From: a virus
Direction: 5' to 3' (one strand)
IMG/VR virus record: IMGVR_UViG_3300034101_004226
Span: 1 to 36,293 of that record
DNA: 36,293 nt
Position numbers and translations under genes: made by a program. This document shows, piece by piece, positions 1 through 34,300 of this stretch; the first letter of the stretch is position 1, and each line of letters begins with the position of its first letter. The notes below the pieces were generated by a model. The model was not told where the DNA came from. It saw nothing but the letters and a program-made list of their open reading frames with translations, and ran no database searches.

Positions 1-718
1 CAATTACCTTTCCTTCATGCCGGCGACCATTTTGGGCGACCCACACCTTGGTGGTGTGTCCCTCAATCTGCAACTCGCGTACCAGTTGCGCTGCCGAACC
101 GGTTTCGGCGTACCGCGCAAAAATATCCCTCACTAGCGCCGCCTCGGGCTCGTTGATGATCAACCTTCGATCCCTGACGTCATAGCCCAACGGTGGCGTG
201 CCACCCATCCACATTCCCTTTGCCTTGCTGGCGGCGATCTTGTCGCGGATCCTCTCGCCGGTCACCTCCCGCTCGAATTGAGCAAAGGACAACAGGATAT
301 TCAGTGTCAGCCGGCCCATGCTGGTCGTCGTATTGAACTGCTGGGTCACCGACACAAAGGTGACGCCGCGTTCGTCAAACAAATCCACGATCTTGGCAAA
401 GTCGGACAGTGAGCGGGACAGCCGGTCTATTTTGTAGACCACCACCACATCGACACGGCCGTCCTCGACGTCAGTCAGGAGACGCTTGAGCGACGGTCGA
501 TTCGTATTGCCGCCAGAGAACCCGCCGTCATCGTAGCCGTCATCTATGGCAATCCATCCTTCGTGACGCTGGCTGGTGATGAATGCCAGCGCCGAGTCAC
601 GTTGTGCCTCAAGACTGTTGTACTCTTGGTCAAGCCCCTCGTCGGTGGACTTGCGCGTATAGATAGCGCAGCGTTTCTTGAGCGTGATCGCGGGCGGGCG
701 TGTTGTGGGCGCTTTCAT
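1..718 (-). CDS. Large serine recombinase (phage integrase), C-terminus cut by window edge
   Basis: I translated this by hand because the frame runs open off the left edge; 239 residues are visible. The N-terminal resolvase domain carries the serine-recombinase signature: an RKST motif near residue 23 with the nucleophilic serine, a YKIDRLSRS block near residues 95-103, and a QFEREVTGERI block where the long helix leads into the recombinase domain. A GGTPPLGY stretch follows, typical of large serine recombinases. Such enzymes integrate and excise phage DNA between attP and attB through a covalent 5'-phosphoserine intermediate. The ATG overlaps the stop of the DUF2924 gene (ATGA), so the two are probably translationally coupled. 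Family assignment is firm; the attachment site must lie outside what I can see. Confidence 0.95.
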   Translation of the reverse strand, partial: MKAPTTRPPAITLKKRCAIYTRKSTDEGLDQEYNSLEAQRDSALAFITSQRHEGWIAIDDGYDDGGFSGGNTNRPSLKRLLTDVEDGRVDVVVVYKIDRLSRSLSDFAKIVDLFDERGVTFVSVTQQFNTTTSMGRLTLNILLSFAQFEREVTGERIRDKIAASKAKGMWMGGTPPLGYDVRDRRLIINEPEAALVRDIFARYAETGSAAQLVRELQIEGHTTKVWVAQNGRRHEGKVI

Positions 719-1179
719 GCTTGGGCCGCCTTTCTTTCACGGCTGGACGGCTTCAGTCCAAAAAACACCGGACCTGAATATACCGATCCGGTGATCTCAC
801 GGGCCACTTTGGAGAGGCTCTTGTATGGGCGGCCGTTGAGATCGAACCGACCGTCCTCCATCACTTTGACCCGATACGTGATGCCGTTGTATTCGCGGAC
901 CAAGGTGGTGCCTGGCGCGAGCTCGCTCTCGGCGCGGCGTTTATGATTTGGTACCTCGCCGGTTTCGCCGATCTGCTCCAGCTTGCGACGGACGTGACCT
1001 GCCAAACTGCCGAAAGCACGCTCCTGGAGCTTGTAGGCAATCCGGCTTTCCAGGTAGGTGCGATGGTGGTGACCGGGGCGGCGGTCAAATAGCTCGTCCC
1101 ATAGCGCCCATAAACTTTCCATCGACAATTGAGGCAGCTGCGCGATTTGCGCGATGCTCGTGTTTGCTTGAGTCGTCAT
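715..1179 (-). CDS. DUF2924 family protein, partner of the serine recombinase
   Basis: A 154-aa protein recognisable as DUF2924: an N-terminal helix with a LWALWDELFDRRP-type motif, a tyrosine/arginine-rich middle (residues 40-70), and a C-terminal beta-rich part (residues 85-135) with a VREYNGITYRVKV block and a KSLSKVAREITG block. The gene is sandwiched by ATGA overlaps: its start overlaps the upstream small ORF and its stop overlaps the recombinase start. DUF2924 genes commonly sit directly before serine recombinase genes in proteobacterial prophages and islands. An accessory or directionality role in recombination is inference only. No catalytic residues are evident. Confidence 0.9.
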   Translation of the reverse strand: MTTQANTSIAQIAQLPQLSMESLWALWDELFDRRPGHHHRTYLESRIAYKLQERAFGSLAGHVRRKLEQIGETGEVPNHKRRAESELAPGTTLVREYNGITYRVKVMEDGRFDLNGRPYKSLSKVAREITGSVYSGPVFFGLKPSSRERKAAQA

Positions 1180-1412
1180 TCTCGAACTCCTTCTGTGTAA
1201 GACGGGTTCGCATTCACGCTCTGCTCGGCACTAAAGCCAAGACAAACTTCGCTGGAGTGGCAAATAGGTGACACGTCTCCCGCAGATGCGCATTTCTGGC
1301 GTGCTCGCAAGATTGCGGTTGCCAGCAGTTCGGCGATTTCCCGATGCGGTTGCCGGGGTTGAATTTCGCGCGTCAAGCGACGTTCGGATGAGGGTAATTC
1401 GAGTTCTGACAT
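1176..1412 (-). CDS. Small hypothetical protein heading the recombinase operon
   Basis: A 78-aa unrecognised protein beginning MSELELPSS. I chose the ATG at 1412 because AGGAG lies about 8 nt upstream on the minus strand; the longer frame from 1445 lacks such a site. The N-terminal half is charged and helical (RLTREIQPRQPHREIAELL, residues about 12-30) and the C-terminal part holds three cysteines. Its stop overlaps the DUF2924 start by ATGA, so it belongs to the same integration operon. The position suggests a small recombination accessory or regulator, but no domain is visible. Confidence 0.7.
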   Translation of the reverse strand: MSELELPSSERRLTREIQPRQPHREIAELLATAILRARQKCASAGDVSPICHSSEVCLGFSAEQSVNANPSYTEGVRE

Positions 1413-1540
1413 GGGTGGCGCTCCTGATGGAAAACTGCCATCCATGCTATGGGCCGACCCCGTTCGAAGTAACTCGTTTTAGGGGAGTGACGAGGCCATG
1501 CGCGGTGCGGTGCCGCGACAAGAGTCAGATCAACACGTCC

Positions 1541-2050
1541 TTATTTCAGAGTGACTGGAAACGTTGCCAACACTTTATGCAGTCGACTTTCAACTCGCTG
1601 CCTCAGGTCGCTATCAGATTGGCATGCTTCCATGAAGGCGGTCAGTGCATGCAGCACATCATTGATTAGGGACGCGGTTCCGATGATCACTCGGTGATTA
1701 TCGAAGGCAGCATCAAATGCGTGCATGCCACCATCATGGTAGCCGTACCTCTTTGCGTCCGTATTCTTTTCATGAAAGTCAGTGTCAGAGCCAAACGCGT
1801 GTAGCAATGCACATCGCGCGCCGTAAACATCAAGGCCACGATATTGGTACGGTTGATCTTTGTGTCCTGTCAGATAGGTGTCTGTCCATGCGATGAATTC
1901 GGCTTTCCCTTGCACTTCTCTGCCAAATGGAAGTGAAAGGTACGCCATGGTGTCGATGCAGACATAGGCCATGGCAACTGCCGCTGTTGTCGCACCAGCT
2001 TGCTCGCATTTCTTGATCTCGGCCACTAAGGCTTTAACGCCGCTCCACAT
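1541..2050 (-). CDS. HEPN-like protein, putative RNase
   Basis: A 169-aa mainly alpha-helical protein with no family I can name for certain. At about residues 78-84 it has the motif RCALLH, which fits the R-X4-6-H signature of HEPN-fold ribonucleases, followed by charged residues and a YGYHDGG stretch. HEPN proteins with this motif act as RNases in toxin-antitoxin and abortive-infection systems. The gene lies 64 bp downstream of the ImmA-like gene on the same strand, so it is probably the third gene of the XRE-ImmA operon. The Shine-Dalgarno sequence is weak. It may be an effector kept silent by the repressor pair, but this is inference. Confidence 0.65.
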   Translation of the reverse strand: MWSGVKALVAEIKKCEQAGATTAAVAMAYVCIDTMAYLSLPFGREVQGKAEFIAWTDTYLTGHKDQPYQYRGLDVYGARCALLHAFGSDTDFHEKNTDAKRYGYHDGGMHAFDAAFDNHRVIIGTASLINDVLHALTAFMEACQSDSDLRQRVESRLHKVLATFPVTLK

Positions 2051-2114
2051 CGTCGGGTAACTTTCTCAATGAAACTTCATGTTGGAATCCGCGAATCGTT
2101 GCGCCACGTTCCCT

Positions 2115-3038
2115 TCACCGAACGGGTAACTGCCCGTTGTCGATGAACCGATCAAAGGTGTCGCGCGTTTCTTCGTCTTCCCAACCACTGCGCTGATAGT
2201 TCCGCGGTGGCGCTGACTCCAACATCAACAAGGACAGCACCCGATTTCCGTCTGTGTAGGTGTGCTTGAGTTCGCGCAAGTGAATGTCGTCCTCTTCACT
2301 TGTGCACCAGTTGCTCGCGAGCATGTCGACGCCATCCCATTCCTGCGCAATTGCGTCATCGGCGGCTAGCGTGCCGGCAATCGGCTCTTGCGGATCGCCC
2401 GTTTGGCGCAAACGCACTCGCGTCCGCCTTGCGTCGCCACTGGGCCACTGGTACTTCAGGAAACCGTTATCCCAATACACCAGGACTGCGCGTTGCTCCG
2501 TACATTTGATGAGCCGGATGCACATTGCCTCGAGCGACACGCCAAATTCCGTGGCCAATTCACCCAGCAAGTGGATGTCGATGCGTTTGCCATCGATACG
2601 ATGACGGAGCATATCGGCGGGCATGAGCAGATTGCTCGCAAAATCGTCAGCCTCACGCTCGATTTTCTTGAGCGTGTCGAGGCCGTAGTACACGCTTTCT
2701 TTGTCGCAGTTGAACGTTGTTTGCACCGCTCGGTGCAAGATGAAATGACCGAGCTCGTGGGCGATGGTGAAGCGCTTGCGCACAGGTCGGGCCTTCGGGT
2801 TAACAAAGATGCCCCACTCGGCATGGTTTTCTGAATTGCGGACCAATGCCCCCTCGCTGGCGTTCCAGGTCAGGTCTGCGGGTTCCTTGATTACAGTGCC
2901 GCGACCGAACGGAGTATCGGGCAGCATCTGTCGCACCAAATTAAGATCGATCGGCAGCGTCCGACAGCCGATGGCCTCCAGCCAAGTGAGTACCTTGGCA
3001 GACGCCTTGAAACTGTTCAGAGATGCCGCGTCGTTCAA
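2115..3038 (-). CDS. ImmA/IrrE family metallopeptidase
   Basis: A 307-aa protein with the zinc-protease motif HELGH at residues 94-98 and the third-ligand region EREADDFASNLLMP around residues 127-140, both diagnostic of the ImmA/IrrE (DUF955) family. In ICEBs1, ImmA cleaves the XRE repressor ImmR to induce the element. Here the start overlaps the stop of the XRE gene (ATGA), the usual repressor-protease pairing. The C-terminal 130 residues are longer than a minimal ImmA; they are rich in aromatic and acidic residues and could sense the inducing signal. It probably controls prophage induction or the adjacent module by cleaving the 115-aa XRE protein. Confidence 0.93.
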   Translation of the reverse strand: MNDAASLNSFKASAKVLTWLEAIGCRTLPIDLNLVRQMLPDTPFGRGTVIKEPADLTWNASEGALVRNSENHAEWGIFVNPKARPVRKRFTIAHELGHFILHRAVQTTFNCDKESVYYGLDTLKKIEREADDFASNLLMPADMLRHRIDGKRIDIHLLGELATEFGVSLEAMCIRLIKCTEQRAVLVYWDNGFLKYQWPSGDARRTRVRLRQTGDPQEPIAGTLAADDAIAQEWDGVDMLASNWCTSEEDDIHLRELKHTYTDGNRVLSLLMLESAPPRNYQRSGWEDEETRDTFDRFIDNGQLPVR

Positions 3039-3382
3039 GTGCCCTCCGCGTTGGAACCCTTTTTGCCAAACATCAGCTTCATGGCATCCCGGTAGCGTTT
3101 CTTTTCTTCCTCACTCATTCCGGCATATTCTCGGAAGAAGGCCACGTCAGTACCGCTGGCGTCGGTAACCGACCCGATGGGTTCACCAAGCAGATCCTCA
3201 ACAGTCGCGCCGAGCAGCTTGCCGATGGCGTTCAGGCGTTCGGCGGTGGGGCGCTGGCCCTCGCGCATTTCCAATTCCCATACATAGGCCTTGGTGCAGC
3301 CGACGGCGTCTGCCACTTGTTGAAGCGTGAGGCCCTTGGCTTCACGAAATTGTCGTAGCCGTATTCCGAAAGGAGTTGGCAT
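3035..3382 (-). CDS. XRE family repressor
   Basis: A 115-aa protein with an N-terminal Cro/CI-type helix-turn-helix (residues about 6-60). The fold begins GIRLRQFREAKGLTLQQVADA and the recognition helix follows VGCTKAYVWELE. The C-terminal part (residues 75-115) is charged and probably contributes to dimerisation or to cleavage by the ImmA-like protease encoded next, whose start overlaps this stop. The gene is transcribed from an extended -10 promoter at 3413-3441. That promoter lies about 16 bp from the -35 of the divergent plus-strand promoter, so one bound repressor could affect both. It is the best candidate for the lysogeny repressor of the window. Confidence 0.9.
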   Translation of the reverse strand: MPTPFGIRLRQFREAKGLTLQQVADAVGCTKAYVWELEMREGQRPTAERLNAIGKLLGATVEDLLGEPIGSVTDASGTDVAFFREYAGMSEEEKKRYRDAMKLMFGKKGSNAEGT

Positions 3383-3412
3383 TTGCGTAGTTACCCTTAG
3401 AAATAGCTGATT

Positions 3413-3441
3413 AGTATAGCAGTAAGAGCCAATTCAATGAA
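3413..3441 (-). promoter_or_regulatory. Promoter of the XRE-ImmA-HEPN operon
   Basis: On the minus strand TGCTATACT forms an extended -10 element (TATACT at 3418-3413, TG just upstream). The -35 position, 17 bp upstream at 3441-3436, reads TTCATT, a poor match, as usual for extended -10 promoters. The start codon at 3382 lies about 31 bp downstream of the -10. Read by eye. Confidence 0.55.
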
Positions 3442-3456
3442 GAAGTGCTACTTTGA

Positions 3457-3484
3457 TTGACAAGAGGGCGTAGGCGCGTAGAAT
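3457..3484 (+). promoter_or_regulatory. Strong sigma70-type promoter for the 416/324-aa operon
   Basis: A perfect -35 TTGACA (3457-3462) and a -10 TAGAAT (3479-3484) are separated by 16 bp. The predicted start near 3491 gives an untranslated leader of about 118 nt before the ATG at 3609. It is back to back with the repressor promoter, the classic layout of a repressor-controlled divergent switch. I could not find a convincing inverted-repeat operator between the two promoters. Confidence 0.7.
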
Positions 3485-3608
3485 CGGCAATGTATCGTTC
3501 TGCTTTACTTTTAACGGTACATGGCTTTTTTTAATAACCAGTCGCCGACGGCAGCACCGCAAGCTTTACGGTCTTCAGTCCAACGACGACATCCTGAAAG
3601 GATCGAGT

Positions 3609-4859
3609 ATGAAACTGACCTACGCTGACGCGCTGCTCAACCTGCCAGTCGACGCGACGCTGCGCACTTACCTCAACAACCAGGGCATGGTGTTCCCGCC
3701 AGACTTTGACTGGACGGATGACCCATCCACCTCCAACCGGCTGATCGAGGCGATCCAGACCCACCCCGACATCGGGGTGCGGGACAAAGTGGTGGCCGGA
3801 TTGCATGTGAGCACGCAACTCGCCCACCCTCGCGGCAAGCAGGCGATGTTCCAGGCCACCTCAGCGAACGGCGCTGCCCTGGTCAGTTTGATCGGTTGCC
3901 AGAGCGACATCCACCGGGCGTTTTGGCTGTTCGTCCACCACATGGACCTGTTTGAGCAGGCAGCAGCGATGGAGTATGTCGACAGCCATACCCAGCACGC
4001 GCAGCAGCATGACCTTGGAATCAAGGTCCCGGTGCGCCGCGACCCGGCATCCATGGCGGCGTTCGGTGATGCCATAAAAGGCTTCTACCAAAAGGAACTT
4101 GGCTGCGGCGAAGTCTGTGTTGCGCACCTGCTGGACCGCGCGCAGGGCACGCAGCTCGTGACGGTGCATGCCAAGGACCTGGCCATGATGCGACTGGAGT
4201 TTGACGGCACGACACTGCAGCGCCGTGTCGGCAGCCCGAACATCCACATGACCCTGGAGTACTCGGACGGCACCGGTGTGGTCCGCACCTTGATTCGTGG
4301 TGGTGCGAAATACCATGAGATGCTTGCCCAGGTCTTCGCGCTGCATCTGCTGGGTGTGGATGTGGCGGCGCAGCGGATCAAGCCGCCAACGCTGGACCTG
4401 TCGACCTTGAAGTTGGGTTTCCAGGTGCCGCAGGCGGCGGCAGATGGCTTTGTGTCGCTGCAGGTCAAGTCGATCACGTTGATGAGCCCGGACACCCACC
4501 TCAAGGCCGAGTTCACGGCAATGGCCAGCAGTGAGCATGATTGCGTCACGGAATTGATTGCCGAAAGATTCGAGCACGACAACCCGCTGGCGCGGCACTG
4601 GCTGGTGACTGCAGCCACCATCAACCTCTACTACGCGCCACCCCCAGGCAAACAGCGCAGCCCCGTCGTGACCGTTGAAGTGACACGTCGTGGTCGCCTG
4701 AATCTGCACAAGTTTGACGAAAAACTGCGCGCTCAGTTGGAGGGCTATCTGGTGCAGATCGGCATCCTGCAAGAAAAGCAGACCTTGTCGGCGCAGACGG
4801 ATATGGCCGGGGCACGCCCGGATCTGGTGGATGAGCGCGCAATTGAGCAAAGCCAATAA
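3609..4859 (+). CDS. Uncharacterised 416-aa protein of the module next to the repressor
   Basis: I do not recognise a family. The start is well supported by GAAAGGA six bases upstream of the ATG. The protein is soluble-looking with no signal peptide or membrane segment. An N-terminal helical region (residues 1-180) with many histidines and acidic residues is followed by a mixed alpha/beta region (residues 190-350). The end is charged and shows an RRGRLNLHKFDEKLRAQLEG helix. It is the first gene after the promoter at 3457-3484 and overlaps the zinc-ribbon gene by 29 bp, so the two products may form a complex. It sits where lambdoid phages keep early regulators and is divergent from XRE-ImmA. 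It could be a regulator or a prophage-encoded defence component; neither is shown. Confidence 0.8.
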   Translation: MKLTYADALLNLPVDATLRTYLNNQGMVFPPDFDWTDDPSTSNRLIEAIQTHPDIGVRDKVVAGLHVSTQLAHPRGKQAMFQATSANGAALVSLIGCQSDIHRAFWLFVHHMDLFEQAAAMEYVDSHTQHAQQHDLGIKVPVRRDPASMAAFGDAIKGFYQKELGCGEVCVAHLLDRAQGTQLVTVHAKDLAMMRLEFDGTTLQRRVGSPNIHMTLEYSDGTGVVRTLIRGGAKYHEMLAQVFALHLLGVDVAAQRIKPPTLDLSTLKLGFQVPQAAADGFVSLQVKSITLMSPDTHLKAEFTAMASSEHDCVTELIAERFEHDNPLARHWLVTAATINLYYAPPPGKQRSPVVTVEVTRRGRLNLHKFDEKLRAQLEGYLVQIGILQEKQTLSAQTDMAGARPDLVDERAIEQSQ

Positions 4860-5805
4860 CGCGACAACCTGGGCGCTTGCGTGTCGGCTCTTTGGCAACG
4901 AGGGGCCGATACTCGAGTCCGCACTATCTGATAACGAGCGCGATGCTCTGGCCGTGCTGGATGAAAACCGTGCGGTGAAACAGCACCGATTGGACCTCAG
5001 GTATGTGCTGTGCCCTTACTGCCAGTTGCAACGTGGCCTGGTCGTTCAATCCGTGACCGGTCTCGCTTGCCAGTGCCCCGACTGCGGGTCCGTGGCGGTG
5101 GATGCCGTTGATCGCCAAGCGTGGTTGTTCGATCCTGATTGGCTGATTCGCAAACTGCGCGGCGCGCTGAACATTCCCGCCCAGCAGGGCACTGTGTCGG
5201 TGGTCGCTGGCATGTGGCGATTGGGGACCCACCAGCGTCGCCCCGTGATCTTGGCGCGCAGTCTGGATCTACCGCTGCAGCACCCGTCGTTGATTGCACG
5301 AACACGCGGCACAGCGGTGCCATGGTTGATCACTCCGAAGCCGATGCGGGATATTGAGCATGATCCACTTGCTGGCGCAGCCGTCTGGCTACCGCTGGAG
5401 GAGCGATTCACCTTGTATGGCGGCAACCTAAGTTATACGGAACCAGGGGCAGAGCCGAATCCCGACGTACAGGACGATACGACAGGGGTAGTGAACGGTC
5501 CGTTTTCTGCCGATTTTCGCTGGGTGCATCTGTCCGGCGACACGATGCCGATCGCATTGTCTTCAGCTCAGGCAGCGGTGTTCAGTGCACTCTGGCATTT
5601 CGCTGGCCAGGAGCAGGGAGCCCACAACGTGATGGGACGCGCGAAGTTGAAGAGCGACAAACCTATCGACGTATTCAAGGTGAAAGCCGAGAACAAGGGC
5701 AACCCAAAATACGAAGATCCACTGCGCGCGTACCAGGAGTTGGTCATCGCCAACCAGCGTGCAGGTACCTATGTCATGCCCTGTGCCGCACCAGTGAAAT
5801 CCTGA
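4831..5805 (+). CDS. Uncharacterised zinc-ribbon protein (324 aa)
   Basis: I take the ATG at 4831, inside the end of the 416-aa gene, because an earlier in-frame start at 4714 would overlap that gene by 146 bp. The initiation site is weak, consistent with translational coupling. Near the N-terminus a CPYC knuckle (Cys61, Cys64) and a CPDC knuckle (Cys82, Cys85) form a zinc ribbon of the kind used to bind nucleic acid or protein. The rest shows beta-rich blocks (residues 110-260) and no catalytic motif I know. A terminator closes the two-gene unit 21 bp after the stop. Family unknown. Confidence 0.8.
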   Translation: MSAQLSKANNATTWALACRLFGNEGPILESALSDNERDALAVLDENRAVKQHRLDLRYVLCPYCQLQRGLVVQSVTGLACQCPDCGSVAVDAVDRQAWLFDPDWLIRKLRGALNIPAQQGTVSVVAGMWRLGTHQRRPVILARSLDLPLQHPSLIARTRGTAVPWLITPKPMRDIEHDPLAGAAVWLPLEERFTLYGGNLSYTEPGAEPNPDVQDDTTGVVNGPFSADFRWVHLSGDTMPIALSSAQAAVFSALWHFAGQEQGAHNVMGRAKLKSDKPIDVFKVKAENKGNPKYEDPLRAYQELVIANQRAGTYVMPCAAPVKS

Positions 5806-5825: not shown

Positions 5826-5860
5826 AAAACGGCGGGCCATTGCGGCTCGCCGTTTTCATT
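5826..5860 (+). terminator. Rho-independent terminator after the 416/324-aa operon
   Basis: AAAACGGCGGGCC (5826-5838), a five-base loop, and GGCTCGCCGTTTT (5844-5856) form a 13-bp stem with one G-U pair, ending in a T-rich tract. The A-tract on the 5' side means it may also work on the minus strand. It isolates the two-gene module from the early operon. Confidence 0.85.
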
Positions 5861-5871
5861 TCTACGGTCAC

Positions 5872-5926
5872 TGGCGAACCCGAACTTCCAGGCCAGTTCG
5901 CCAGCCGGTTCCTTAACAGTTCGCCA
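5872..5926 (+). promoter_or_regulatory. Three repeated GTTCGCCA sites, probable operators
   Basis: CAGTTCGCCA occurs twice as a direct repeat (5894-5903 and 5917-5926), and its inverted core TGGCGAAC occurs at 5872-5879. The cores start 24 and 23 bp apart, close to two helical turns, so bound proteins would lie on one face of the DNA. The third site overlaps the -35/spacer of the early promoter. I did not find the motif at the XRE promoter. The binding protein could be the XRE repressor, the 89-aa HTH protein or another factor. Confidence 0.6.
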
Positions 5927-5941
5927 CCCAAATTTTTCAAT
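5913..5941 (+). promoter_or_regulatory. Early-operon promoter
   Basis: The -35 TTAACA (5913-5918) and -10 TTCAAT (5936-5941) are separated by 17 bp, just upstream of the first early gene (ATG at 5979). The -35 differs from consensus at one base and the -10 at two. The proximal GTTCGCCA site lies in the spacer, as expected for repression by occlusion. Confidence 0.5.
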
Positions 5942-5978: not shown

Positions 5979-6248
5979 ATGCTGCAATCAACATCAGCAA
6001 ATCGCGGTTTGTCATCAAGTCTGATGACCTCCGCACCGGTGGCACCGCACGAGCGGCGTGTGCTCTCTGAAACCGAACTGGCACAGCGCTGGGGCGTGAG
6101 TCCGAAGACGCTGCAACGCTGGCGCTCTGAAGGGCGTGGTCCGCACTACCTGAAGCTCTCCAAGCGGGTGACCTATCCGCTGGAAGTGGTGACCGAGTAT
6201 GAGCACAGCGCGCTGCACGTCTCGACGTCCGAACGTGCGGTCAAGTGA
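5979..6248 (+). CDS. MerR/excisionase-type helix-turn-helix protein
   Basis: An 89-aa protein whose central part (residues about 28-70) is an HTH_17/excisionase-like winged helix: an LSETELAQRWGVSPKTLQRWR helix pair, then GPHYLKLSKRVTYPLEVV, the wing. The start has a GAAAGGGG ribosome-binding site. It is the first gene of the early operon, directly behind the repeated operator sites, a position suiting a Cox/Xis-like regulator or autorepressor. It could also act as the recombination directionality factor for the serine recombinase. DNA binding is well supported; the exact role is inferred. Confidence 0.82.
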   Translation: MLQSTSANRGLSSSLMTSAPVAPHERRVLSETELAQRWGVSPKTLQRWRSEGRGPHYLKLSKRVTYPLEVVTEYEHSALHVSTSERAVK

Positions 6249-10518: not shown

Positions 10519-10766
10519 AAACCACCTCACTCCACCCCCCTGTGGTCAGGGAACCGTTCGTCGACGCCCGCGAAGCGGCCTACACCATGAACCTGCCGAT
10601 GTACTACATGACCAATGCACGCCAGCGTACCAAGCTGCGCATTCCCCACTACCGCATCGGCCGAATGGTGCGCTTCAAGCTCTCGGAACTTGCCGAGTGG
10701 CAGCAGTTGCACGGCAGCACGACGTCCGCCGACCTTGCATCCGGAAGCGAGGTATCCGATGAGTGA
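10515..10766 (+). CDS. Small excisionase-like helix-turn-helix protein
   Basis: An 83-aa protein beginning MKTTSLHPP. The core (residues 15-60) reads as a winged helix of the excisionase/HTH_17 type: DAREAAYTMNLPMYYMTN, then arginine-rich contacts, then PHYRIGRMVRFKLSELAEW, the wing and final helix. It overlaps the exonuclease stop (ATGA) and the primase start. It may be a regulator or a replication-initiation helper that recruits the primase-helicase. The DNA-binding call is good; the role is unknown. Confidence 0.8.
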   Translation: MKTTSLHPPVVREPFVDAREAAYTMNLPMYYMTNARQRTKLRIPHYRIGRMVRFKLSELAEWQQLHGSTTSADLASGSEVSDE

Positions 10767-13068
10767 GCCAGGACATCCGGATCCGCTGGATTTCAACGAT
10801 TGCGCTGCGCCGATTGAGACGGATCGCAGTGCCGAGCGCAATGAGACCCGTTCTGCGTTGCTGGCGCGGCTCGAATCGGTGCTGTCCACCATCTTCCCTG
10901 CGGGCAAGGTTCGGCGCGGAAAATTTCATATTGGCGACATCTTGGGCAGCCCCGGCGACAGCCTGGAAATCGTGGTCGATGGCGAAAAGGCTGGTCTGTG
11001 GACGGACCGTGCGACGGGCGACGGTGGTGACATCTTCGATCTGCTGGCGCGGCACATGCCTGCCGACGTGCACGCTGATTTCGCGCGCGTGTTGCAGTAC
11101 GCCGGCGATCTGGCCGGGCGTGCCAGCCCTGTGCCAGTGCGCAAAGCCAAACGTGAAGCCCCGGTGGACGATCTTGGCCAGACTACTGCCAAGTGGGACT
11201 ACCTGGACGCCAACGGAGCCTTGATCGCCGTGGTGTACCGGTACGACCCACCCGGGCGGCGCAAGGAATTCCGGCCCTGGGATGCCAAACGCCGCAAGAT
11301 GGCACCGCCCAACCCACGACCGCTGTACCACCAGCCGGGTCTGGTTGCTGCCCACCAGATCATTCTGGTCGAGGGCGAGAAGTGCGCGCAGGCCTTGATC
11401 GACTTGGGGCTTTGCGCCACCACCGCCATGCACGGTGCCAACGCGCCGGTTGATAAAACCGACTGGTCACCGCTGGAGGGCAAGGTCGTGCTGATCTGGC
11501 CCGACCGTGATAAGCCGGGGTGGGAGTATGCCGATCGCGCTTCACAAGCGATTCTGGCCGCTGGCGCTGAGTCCGTTGCCATCCTGTATCCGCCAGCAGA
11601 GAAGCCCGACGGATGGGATGCGGCCGATGCCGTTGCCGAGGGCTTCGACGTTCAGGGATTCCTGATGGCCGGCGACCGCGTACCGGTGGCCGCCCAAAGC
11701 GATGCGCCGATCGAGGACAAGCTGGTCGAGGGTATCGACTGGACCACCGAGGACGGGTTGGCTACCGCTTTCACCCGCCGCTACGGCGAAGACTGGCGTT
11801 ACTGCGCCCAGTGGGGCAAGTGGCTCGTGTGGACCGGGATCCGCTGGAATCCGGACCAGTTGCTCTACATTCAGCACCTATCGCGCAATATCTGCCGGGC
11901 TGCTTCCTTCAAGGCAGACACGCCGCGTTTGCGTGCTCGTCTGGCCAGCTCGTCCACCATCAGCGCTGTGGAGCGTATCGCACGCAGCGATCCCAAGCAC
12001 GCGTCCATGGCCGAGCACTGGGATGCCGAAGTCTGGCTGCTGAACACGCCCGGTGGTGTCGTGGATCTGCGCAGTGGCGTCATTCGCTCGCATGACCGCG
12101 CTGACCGGATGACCAAGGTCTGCACCGCTGTGCCGCAAAGCGACTGCCCCACCTGGCGCGGCTTCCTGTCGGATGTGACTGGGGGCGACGCGGAACTGAT
12201 GGTCTATCTGCAGCGCATGGTGGGCTACTGCTTGACCGGGGTGACCAGCGAGCACGCATTGTTCTTCCTGTACGGCACGGGTGCCAATGGCAAGTCGGTC
12301 TTCGTGAATGTGATTGCCACCATCCTGGGCGACTACGCCGCCAACGCGCCCATGGACACGTTCATGGAAACACGGTCTGACCGGCATCCCACTGATCTGG
12401 CAGGCCTGCGTGGTGCGCGCTTTGTCGCATCGATCGAGACCGAGCAGGGTCGGCGCTGGAACGAATCAAAGATCAAGACCATCACCGGTGGCGACAAGGT
12501 GTCTGCGCGTTTCATGCGCCAGGACTTCTTCGACTACACGCCACACTTCAAGCTGGTCATCGCCGGCAACCACAAACCGTCCATCCGCAATGTGGACGAG
12601 GCCATGAAGCGTCGGCTGCATCTGATTCCGTTCACGGTGACCATTCCGCCCGAACGCCGTGACGGCAAGCTCACTGAGAAGCTGCTGCAAGAACGCGACG
12701 GTATTCTGGCGTGGGCCCTTGAGGGTTGCTTGCTGTGGCAGCAGTCCGGCCTGAAACAGCCGCAAAGCGTCATGGATGCCACCGAGGAGTATTTCGAGGC
12801 CGAGGACGCCATGGGGCGCTGGATCGAGGACCGCTGTGTTCTGCACGGCAACGCCAAAGCGCTGACGTTCGAGTTGTTCAACGACTGGAAGCAGTGGGCT
12901 GAGACCAACGGCGAGTTTCTGGGCTCTATGCGCCGGTTCTCGGATGCGCTCTTAACGCGCCGCTTCGAGAAATGGCGCAACAGCTCGGGCATGCGCGGCT
13001 TTGTCGGCATCGGCTTAAAGGAGCCGACCGACCTCCCACGCGCAAGCTACCCCTACAACGATAACTGA
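10759..13068 (+). CDS. Primase-helicase (TOPRIM plus D5/SF3 helicase)
   Basis: A 769-aa replication protein from the ATG at 10759, which overlaps the preceding gene. The N-terminal part (residues 35-105) resembles a CHC2-type primase region ending GDIFDLLARH but lacks the usual cysteines. A TOPRIM domain follows, with VEGEKC at residues 204-209 and a DRD pair at 249-251. A D5-N-like region leads to a superfamily 3 helicase with Walker A GTGANGKS at residues 506-513, and the protein ends in a winged-helix-like region. It synthesises primers and unwinds DNA at the phage fork, as in P4-type proteins. The origin may lie in or near this gene, but I did not find iterons. Confidence 0.93.
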   Translation: MSEPGHPDPLDFNDCAAPIETDRSAERNETRSALLARLESVLSTIFPAGKVRRGKFHIGDILGSPGDSLEIVVDGEKAGLWTDRATGDGGDIFDLLARHMPADVHADFARVLQYAGDLAGRASPVPVRKAKREAPVDDLGQTTAKWDYLDANGALIAVVYRYDPPGRRKEFRPWDAKRRKMAPPNPRPLYHQPGLVAAHQIILVEGEKCAQALIDLGLCATTAMHGANAPVDKTDWSPLEGKVVLIWPDRDKPGWEYADRASQAILAAGAESVAILYPPAEKPDGWDAADAVAEGFDVQGFLMAGDRVPVAAQSDAPIEDKLVEGIDWTTEDGLATAFTRRYGEDWRYCAQWGKWLVWTGIRWNPDQLLYIQHLSRNICRAASFKADTPRLRARLASSSTISAVERIARSDPKHASMAEHWDAEVWLLNTPGGVVDLRSGVIRSHDRADRMTKVCTAVPQSDCPTWRGFLSDVTGGDAELMVYLQRMVGYCLTGVTSEHALFFLYGTGANGKSVFVNVIATILGDYAANAPMDTFMETRSDRHPTDLAGLRGARFVASIETEQGRRWNESKIKTITGGDKVSARFMRQDFFDYTPHFKLVIAGNHKPSIRNVDEAMKRRLHLIPFTVTIPPERRDGKLTEKLLQERDGILAWALEGCLLWQQSGLKQPQSVMDATEEYFEAEDAMGRWIEDRCVLHGNAKALTFELFNDWKQWAETNGEFLGSMRRFSDALLTRRFEKWRNSSGMRGFVGIGLKEPTDLPRASYPYNDN

Positions 13069-31311: not shown

Positions 31312-34300
31312 TCGGCGCCGTCGCGGGCGCCTTTGTTAGCGATGCCATAGCAACGGTCGCCGGCGGTGTCATCGCCGGGTCGATCCTCGAAGGCGGCATC
31401 ATTGGCGGCATCGCCGAGACTGTCGGCGCATCCGTCCTGGCGTCCGGGGTCGGCATGGTCGCTGGCGGCCTCACCAATATGGCGGTGCGATCGATGCTTG
31501 GGCCATCGGTTAATGCGCCGCAGTCTGTAGCACAGGCTGCGAATGCAGCCCGTGGCATTCTGCTCAATACGTCTGGCACTATCGATCCGATTAACGTGGT
31601 CTACGGCGCGCGCCGGATCGGCGGCACGTTGGTCTATGTGCAGTCGTCAGGCAGCAGCAACGAGTATCTACACCTGGTCCTGGCGCTCGCCGAGGGCGAA
31701 ATAAATGCGATTAACAACGTCTACCTCGACGATGTCGTCAGCATCGATACGAAATTCAGCTCGTTGGTCACGATTGAAAAGTATGTCGGTACCGACACTC
31801 AGACGGCCAGCACGGCCCTGTCGGCCGCATGCGCCAATTGGGACTCGACGCACACGCTGTCAGGTGTTGCCTACGTCTATGTCAAGCTGCAATACGACGC
31901 GAACGTCTTTCACGCGATCCCGGTTATTACCTGTGACATCGACGGCAAGAAGGTCTACGATCCGCGCGACTCAACGACCAAGTTCTCGAACAACCCGGCG
32001 CTCTGTATTCGAGACTACCTGACGAACACGCGGTATGGCCGCGGAATTCCGTCGGCCGCGATTGACGATGCAACATTCATCGCCGCAGCGAACGCCTGCG
32101 ACACGACCGTGCCGATTCCTGCCGGCACGCAGGCCGCCTATACCTGCGACGGCGTGGTCAATACTAGCGCGGCGCCACTGGCGAACCTGTCGGATCTACT
32201 CACCTCCTGCCGGGGATTTCTGGTCTATTCCGGCGGCAAATATAAGTTGCGGCTTGATATAGCCGGGACTGCGTCATTTGCTTTCACTGAAGACAATATC
32301 GTTGGGCAATGGTCAATCAAGTTGCCCGAAAAGCGTAACCGTGCCAACCGTGTATCGACCACATGGTTTGATCCGTCGAATAACTGGCAACCGAACATCG
32401 ATACGCAAGATTCGACCTCCTACCGCAGTGAGGACAACGGTGTCCTACTCGAAGCTCAGCATTCGTTGCCCTACACCGCGAATGTTTATCGGGTGCAGCA
32501 GATCGGCCAGCAAACACTGAAGCAGTCGCGAAAGCAAACGCTTTGCCAATTTACGTCGACCATCGCGGGCCTGCGCTGCGAAGTAGGTGACTTGGTCACG
32601 ATCACGCATTCGACGCCTGGATGGTCGAGCAAGGTCTTTCGTGTGATGCGGCTCGCGCTACTGTCGTCCGACGAGGTCGAAGTCACGGCCATCGAATATG
32701 ACGCGAACGTCTATAACCTTGATGCGCTGGCGACGGTGTCTCCGCTGCCGGGAACGAACCTGCCCGATCCCTTGGCGGTCGGCTCGCCTACCGGTCTTTC
32801 TGTCGCCGTCCAGAACATCACGCAGCCGGACGGCACGGTCATTCCGCGTCTCGTAGCAAGCTGGTCGGCACCGAATGACGCATTCGTTGTTGGCTACGAG
32901 GTTGCCTATCGTGAGAATTCTGGCCCATGGGATACCACTACGGTTGCTTCGACTTCGATGGTCATTCCCGCGACCGTCACCGGACGCAATTACGACGTCC
33001 GGTTGCGCGCCATCAATTCGATGGGTATCCGTGGCGCATGGGTGGTTCTCAATGGCACGACCTGCACGGCACCGACGGTAGGGCCGAGCGCACCGACTGT
33101 GACGGCCACCGGCGGTATGTTCTCGGTACATGTCGCCTGGTCATTCGGGGATTCGCGCCAGGACATTCTCGGCACTGAAATCTGGTGGTCAATGGCCAAC
33201 AATCGCAGCTCAGCCTTGATGCTGTCACTGGTACCCTTCGCGGCAAGGGAATACAACCACGTGGGTCTCTCGGCTGGCCAGGGAGGATATTACTGGTTCC
33301 GAGTAACCGATACATTCGGCAACGTGTCAGCCTGGTATCCATCTGGCTCGACTTCGGGCCTCTACGCGGTCGCCAATTCGGACCCATCCGCGCTGCTGAC
33401 TCAACTGAAAACCAGCCTTGGCCTGGGTCAATTGGCAGCGGAATTGGCCGCACCAATTGTATCGATGCCTGGGGCGCTCACCTCTAATGCCCAGGCAGCC
33501 CTGCAATCGGCGTTATCGGAATACGATCTGACGACCCGGATGCAGTGGCAGGAGTCGGTGACGAACGCAACCGTCACCGTCGATCCGGCGACCGGAAGGA
33601 TTGCGCTGCTAGCGACGGCCAACGTCACGACAGACGTTGAAGCGCGCCTAACGGCCGCTGAAGTCGTCGTTAATGCAGATCACGCAACATTGACCAGTAC
33701 AGTCTCGACACTCTCCACAGTGCAGGGGAATCTGACCGCAGCGCAGTCCGCTATTACGCTCCTGCAGAGCTCGGTCTCGGTCGGGGCAAGTGAGGTCTAT
33801 GTCGACAGTCAGATCGCCAATGCGGTGGGCGGAATAAACGTTACGTCGGCAAATGCATACACGAGCCTTGCTAATGAGGCGATCCGCGGCGCCATTGATA
33901 TGTTCGACAGCCAGGCAACAGATCGCACGCTCAACGCGAACGTCGCCGTCGCCAATGCGACATTGCAGGCGCACGCCGACGCCATCGCGGCCGAGGCGAG
34001 CAGTCGCACCGCTCTGGTGGCAGTCGTTGTCTCGAACGCCGCGGCGATCATTAGCGAAGCGATGGCCAGGGCGAACGCCGATAGCGCCGAAGCGAGCGCG
34101 CGAACGCTTATCGACGCGCGGGTGACGAACGCCGAGGCTAATATTGTGACCGAACAATCGACACGGGCATCGGCTGACTCGGCGCTGGCGTCGACCATTT
34201 CGACGTTGACCGCGACGGTCTCAGGGCATACCTCGTCGATTAGCAGTGAGATCAGTACCCGGGCATCGGCTGACTCGGCGCTGGCGTCGACCATTTCGAC

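Follow-up and report, generated by a model that had tools for sequence, protein, structure and literature searches.

The questions raised by this locus are which protein reads a cluster of short repeats lying over a predicted early promoter, and whether that protein turns the genes behind the promoter on or off. The window, a 36,293-base IMG/VR virus record without an attached host genome, carries the 8-mer GTTCGCCA three times in close succession. Site 1 is inverted (5872-5879, minus strand), and sites 2 (5896-5903) and 3 (5919-5926) are direct copies on the plus strand; each was assigned by exact match and by conservation in relatives. These are the three copies that the first-pass annotation had reported, recovered at the same positions and on the same strands, and their start-to-start steps of 24 and 23 bp bear out the spacing behind its proposal of helical phasing. 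To these we add a fourth site, 2b, with the sequence GTTCCTTA (5908-5915, plus strand), which stays constant among relatives while sites 1 to 3 change their core. Sites 2, 2b, and 3 begin at +24, +36, and +47 from site 1, giving direct-repeat steps of 12 and 11 bp.

Within the window, GTTCGCCA alone among 8-mers is present as three separate copies in a span of 60 bp; in the single other hit, two copies partly overlap. CAGTTCGCCA is confined to the two direct sites. Outside the array, the 36.3 kb hold one exact copy of GTTCGCCA, at 32179 within a tail gene, and no second array-like cluster was found in the window. The expectation that the motif would stand out from random frequency across the genome was borne out for exact copies, which are clustered, and not once a mismatch was allowed: 53 such matches occur against 46 expected, which is chance level. 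The signal is therefore one of clustering and not of overall frequency.

Relatives were collected without using the array as a criterion. The 89-aa HTH protein encoded just downstream (5979-6248) served as the query that retrieved 80 IMG/VR loci, and 77 of them had readable DNA upstream of the HTH gene. The array was present in 76 of the 77 at the fixed steps of 24 and 23, with at most two mismatches over 24 positions (perfect in 61 loci, one or two mismatches in 15); the remaining locus, L055, has perfect sites with site 3 shifted one base further. None of 231 control stretches taken from these loci matched with fewer than 8 mismatches. Among 59 sequences with less than 90% similarity, the information content per base is about 0.2 bit ahead of the array and climbs to about 2 bits right where site 1 begins on the left. 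A genome scan located the array at 45 places, 36 of them with the HTH gene following it, in Burkholderiales, Rhodocyclales, Nitrosomonadales, Xanthomonadales, and related bacteria. Among annotated phages, the one closest in this operon is Acidithiobacillus phage AcaML1 (HTH protein 46% identical), and it lacks the array. Neither blastn of the array element against public annotated phages and plasmids nor a defence-gene library gave a match, tblastn with the peptide encoded by the element came back empty, and literature searches returned chance matches only for the motif and nothing relevant on phage winged-helix/zinc-ribbon regulators.

The promoter beneath the array consists of a −35 hexamer TTAACA (5913-5918, plus strand), which site 2b overlaps, and a −10 hexamer TTCAAT (5936-5941, plus strand; T..AAT conserved), separated by 17 bp. 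Site 3 forms the first 8 bases of this spacer and ends 9 bp before the −10, so that the placement of the last copy between −35 and −10, just before the early HTH gene, was correctly described earlier. A strict sigma-70 scan did not report TTAACA-17-TTCAAT; across relatives, this offset is the top-scoring of all those tested. The mean promoter score was 8.1 of 12 in 28 arrays from distant phages and from relatives sharing the window's gene order (runner-up offset 5.2), and 6.7 in 83 other arrays (runner-up 5.0). The −35 takes the forms TTATCA and TTAACA in the former group, and the −10 appears among relatives as TGAAAT, TTCAAT, TGGAAT, or TCCAAT. Just before the array, a hairpin with a 13-bp stem (5826-5856, plus strand; −22.6 kcal/mol, z −5.5) is predicted to be an intrinsic terminator closing the upstream operon, and by eye a hairpin is found in this place in most relatives. 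Downstream, the HTH protein (plus strand) is the first product of the early operon and is HTH_17/excisionase-like (Pfam HTH_17, 1.4e-7; phrog_66); a D5-type primase-helicase (10615-13068) is encoded in the same operon. The array is a conserved set of repeated 8-base sites covering the predicted promoter of lytic genes in a widespread phage family, in keeping with the initial description of an operator array over an early promoter.

The upstream control region is found in two arrangements. In the window and its close relatives (layout A), the integrase, ImmA, and XRE genes run leftward, while g3609 (3609-4859, plus strand) and g4714 (4843-5805, plus strand) form one operon running rightward into the terminator and the array. 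In the majority layout, the whole integrase-ImmA-XRE-g3609-g4714 module is inverted, with its integrase side facing the array (window 1-5805 compared with L201, L210, L223, and L236). The terminator, the array, and the HTH operon keep their place in both. The XRE-family repressor (3035-3382, minus strand) and g3609 diverge from a shared intergenic region (3383-3608), which in the window contains a strong promoter, TTGACA-N16-TAGAAT, and an inverted repeat, GTATCG-N17-CGGTAC, that is conserved in layout-A relatives and is a candidate XRE operator. The array motif is absent from this region, just as the first-pass annotation had found for the XRE promoter. The 416-aa g3609 protein belongs to phrog_37634 (unknown) and has an RdgC/CENP-N-like predicted fold (Foldseek E 4e-5 and 1.6e-4, respectively). 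In L222, L223, and L236, cargo genes lie between the integrase and the array, one L236 ORF being MerT-like (mercury transport) by eye.

The identity of the reader is best approached through phages in which the core has changed. A search with a g4714 alignment reached distant relatives (39-45% identity) with the same array architecture before the HTH gene, or before g6245 where the HTH gene is missing. The four bases after GTTC vary jointly at sites 1 to 3, as GCCA, ACCA, CTTA, CTTG, TTTA, or CTGG, while site 2b is GTTCCTTA throughout the layout-A and distant phages. Over 111 distinct arrays, the tetramers of the three sites agree far beyond shuffles in a permutation that ignores kinship; site 3 is often one or two bases off sites 1 and 2. 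Three mosaic phages separate the remaining candidate readers. L315 resembles the CTTA-type phages L327 and L336 in g3609 (96-98%) and in the N-terminal part of g4714 (92-95%); its g4714 C-terminal domain is closest to TTTA phages (79-81% vs 68-69%), and its array is TTTA. L329 has the HTH (95-98%) and g6245 (91-97%) proteins of TTTA phages together with a g4714 C-terminal domain closest to CTTA phages (83-84% vs 68-72%), and its array is CTTA; five of its 8 differences from L331 in 150 bases fall within the three 8-mers. In L358, an N-terminal part as in CTTA phages (90%) is joined to a C-terminal domain closest to that of the CTTG phage L338 (87%), and sites 1 and 2 carry the CTTG core. In what amounts to about three mosaic events, the array core goes with the C-terminal domain of g4714. 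Of the further candidates compared, XRE, the 89-aa HTH protein, BRO, and g3609, none tracks the core. Simple adjacency is a weak explanation for this pattern, since about 1.9-8 kb of variable DNA separates g4714 from the array in the mosaic phages. Within the C-terminal domain, an S-x-K/R-x-x-D stretch differs by type, with K in every GCCA variant found, KPM in CTTA and CTTG, RPI in TTTA, and RPG in CTGG; SDKLID is common to ACCA-type and some GCCA-type phages, so this short motif is no one-to-one code.

The g4714 protein (first listed as the ORF 4714-5805) most likely starts, judging by alignment, at the TTG at 4843, which gives 320 aa with four invariant cysteines (CxxC...CxxC). Pfam yielded no family above threshold and no receiver domain. 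The AlphaFold2 model (mean pLDDT 86, pTM 0.58) combines a winged helix with a zinc ribbon in the N-terminal region and places a second winged helix at residues 216-317. This C-terminal domain mostly matches OmpR/PhoB-family DNA-binding domains, with Foldseek probabilities up to 0.98 at E values of 0.07 or worse and a VIA Z of about 7, which by the tool's own scale is a common value. We describe it as predicted OmpR/PhoB-like, on weak fold matches.

This prediction suggests a comparison with the PHO boxes of E. coli PhoB and Streptomyces PhoP. Effector domains of the OmpR/PhoB family line up head to tail on direct repeats of 11 nt and also touch sigma-70, and the PHO-box core of S. coelicolor PhoP is GTTCACC (PMC4415409). 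The array likewise has a conserved core with variable bases, GTTC(A/G)CC beside GTTCACC (PMC4415409), and its direct repeats, at steps of 12 and 11 bp, are close to the head-to-tail spacing of about 11 nt in PHO boxes. Like a PHO box, it ends just upstream of the −10 and lies over the −35, which site 2b overlaps, and its candidate reader has a predicted OmpR-like winged-helix domain. The steps, the core, and the end 9 bp before the −10 together fit the OmpR/PhoB binding mode. Unlike a PHO box, the array has an extra inverted site 24 bp upstream and 12/11-bp steps, and is a single target per phage; unlike OmpR/PhoB regulators, the candidate reader has no detected receiver domain and carries a zinc ribbon and a second winged helix. 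Operators of lambda CI/Cro and P2 C/Cox also place several phased sites over an early promoter and differ in specificity among related phages. Their sites are short palindromes, whereas those of the array are single half-sites in direct repeat, and the reader proposed here is not the XRE repressor and is encoded elsewhere in the control region; the lack of the motif at the XRE promoter, the direct repeats, and an XRE protein that does not track the core all depart from a lambda-type CI/Cro operator.

On comparative sequence evidence, we consider it probable that the array is the operator of the g4714 protein, within a circuit leading from XRE to this regulator and on to the replication operon. 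In the lysogen, XRE would repress transcription of the 3609-5805 operon from its strong promoter; upon induction, XRE would release this operon and the regulator would be made. It would then bind the array cooperatively, reading GTTC plus the variable tetramer in a PHO-box-like manner, inverted at 5872 and then head to tail at 5896, 5908, and 5919 across a moderate −35. The bound regulator would turn on the HTH-BRO-AAA-D5 replication operon, which the terminator at 5826-5856 would shield from read-through. The joint change of the array core and its C-terminal domain marks the g4714 protein as the likely switch of the lytic genes. As for the sign, we lean toward activation and away from repression, based on gene order and the PHO-box-like geometry. 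Against this account, beside the weak fold matches and the small number of mosaics, stand the inversion of site 1, unlike in a plain PHO box, and the position of sites over the −35 and spacer, which is just as compatible with a repressor.

The unit of the array, about 57 bp with a GAAGTT loop and mostly with the third site, is also present in phages without the HTH gene, at one copy per record. It lies in the DUF935 (Mu gp29-like) portal gene of L097, L098, L118, L130, L189, L197, L243, L246-L248, L259, L269, L270, and L279, where it occupies a variable linker; in a primase-like gene of L168 and L244; in accessory genes of L094, L095, L104, L120, L135, and L281; and at other or intergenic positions in L103, L211, L226, L239, L172, and L188, including between genes of Mu-like phages. 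The in-gene copies are always antisense, in the frame reading LANxAETSGSP, and a search allowing for codon degeneracy brought up no copies with a different DNA spelling. No g4714 homologue was found in the eight element-in-gene records searched, most of them fragments, a further point against g4714 as the reader.

The main rival keeps both regulator and operator and reverses the sign: the g4714 protein would shut off the replication operon from the −35 and spacer, in the manner of Cro or of regulators that set copy number. In its favour, the −35 and the 17-bp spacer share bases with sites 2b and 3, and the promoter averages about 8 of 12 in layout-A and distant relatives. Should XRE repress the 3609-5805 operon, however, no known factor would be left to silence the HTH operon in the lysogen; the distance of 9 bp from the end of site 3 to the −10 is like that in PHO boxes occupied by an activator, and the −35 is poor in most relatives. 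Repression deserves real weight, though we hold it the less probable sign. We give little credence to XRE, the 89-aa HTH protein, or BRO as the reader, the candidates named by the first-pass annotation, even though nearly all relatives have the HTH gene immediately behind the array. L306, L307, L309, L310, and L311 lack both the HTH and the BRO gene and keep the array (CTGG), and HTH proteins about 98% identical pair with both TTTA and CTTA arrays. XRE has a candidate inverted repeat of its own, GTATCG-N17-CGGTAC, and its identity does not track array type: the L309 and L311 proteins are 76-77% identical to that of the window and accompany CTGG arrays, while layout-B proteins at 62-72% accompany GCCA arrays. 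These comparisons do not support the named candidates and uphold the accompanying suggestion of a second regulator distinct from XRE. Besides these cases, L174 (reverse strand, 637-1060 after the array) encodes a ParB-like protein, by eye, in place of HTH and BRO, in an operon that retains a GCCA-type array and a g4714 homologue.

Two further readings were weighed. In the first, the repeats are iterons of a replication origin that serves the D5-type primase-helicase, on the model of satellite phage P4; in favour are the D5/primase gene in the operon, the AT-rich DNA adjoining the array, and the similarity of GGCGAACTG to the P4 iteron, GGTGAACAG. The core follows the regulator's C-terminal domain, however, only 3-4 sites are present with no second cluster in the window, and the sites are in register with a conserved promoter, which makes iterons the least probable of the alternatives. 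Scarcely more probable is a mobile palindromic element that landed ahead of the early operon and plays no part in regulation there. Like Rickettsia palindromic elements, the element is short and palindromic and occurs in non-coding stretches as well as, in frame, inside unrelated genes, and the copies in portal, primase-like, and accessory genes and between genes, one per record, speak for this view. The array, however, is near-universal at a single exact early-promoter position, changes its core in concert, and tracks a DNA-binding domain; it also differs from the Rickettsia elements in having one copy per phage, three phased repeats, and a fixed promoter operator as its main form. An RNA hairpin was rejected, as the 70-nt array folds only a little more stably than shuffles (z −1.8 on the plus strand, −1.3 on the minus strand) and the base preceding GTTCGCCA correlates among all three sites, not within one stem only. 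A recombination site was also considered, given that the integrase-repressor module next to the array has opposite orientations in the two groups of relatives. It was likewise set aside, since the array remains attached to the HTH operon and the module is not flanked by a second copy.

Under the operator reading, an uncharacterised regulator family of many prophages, mainly in Betaproteobacteria with some in Xanthomonadales, gains a likely target. Recombination appears to have switched specificity several times, providing natural pairs of regulator domain and operator in which protein-DNA recognition is testable. More speculatively, and with considerable doubt, a phage family of OmpR-like regulators without a detected receiver domain might run lytic replication genes by an address code, in which a fixed GTTC is followed by a tetramer rewritten at all main sites when the C-terminal domain is exchanged, giving specificity groups; the in-gene copies in unrelated phages might then sense or titrate the regulator of a resident prophage. 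Operator copies within the genes of unrelated phages in any case raise the question of phage cross-talk. Among the accessory proteins with the element, those of L094, L095, L120, and L135 share the part before it and continue beyond it with different C-terminal parts, as though the element had been a point of module exchange.
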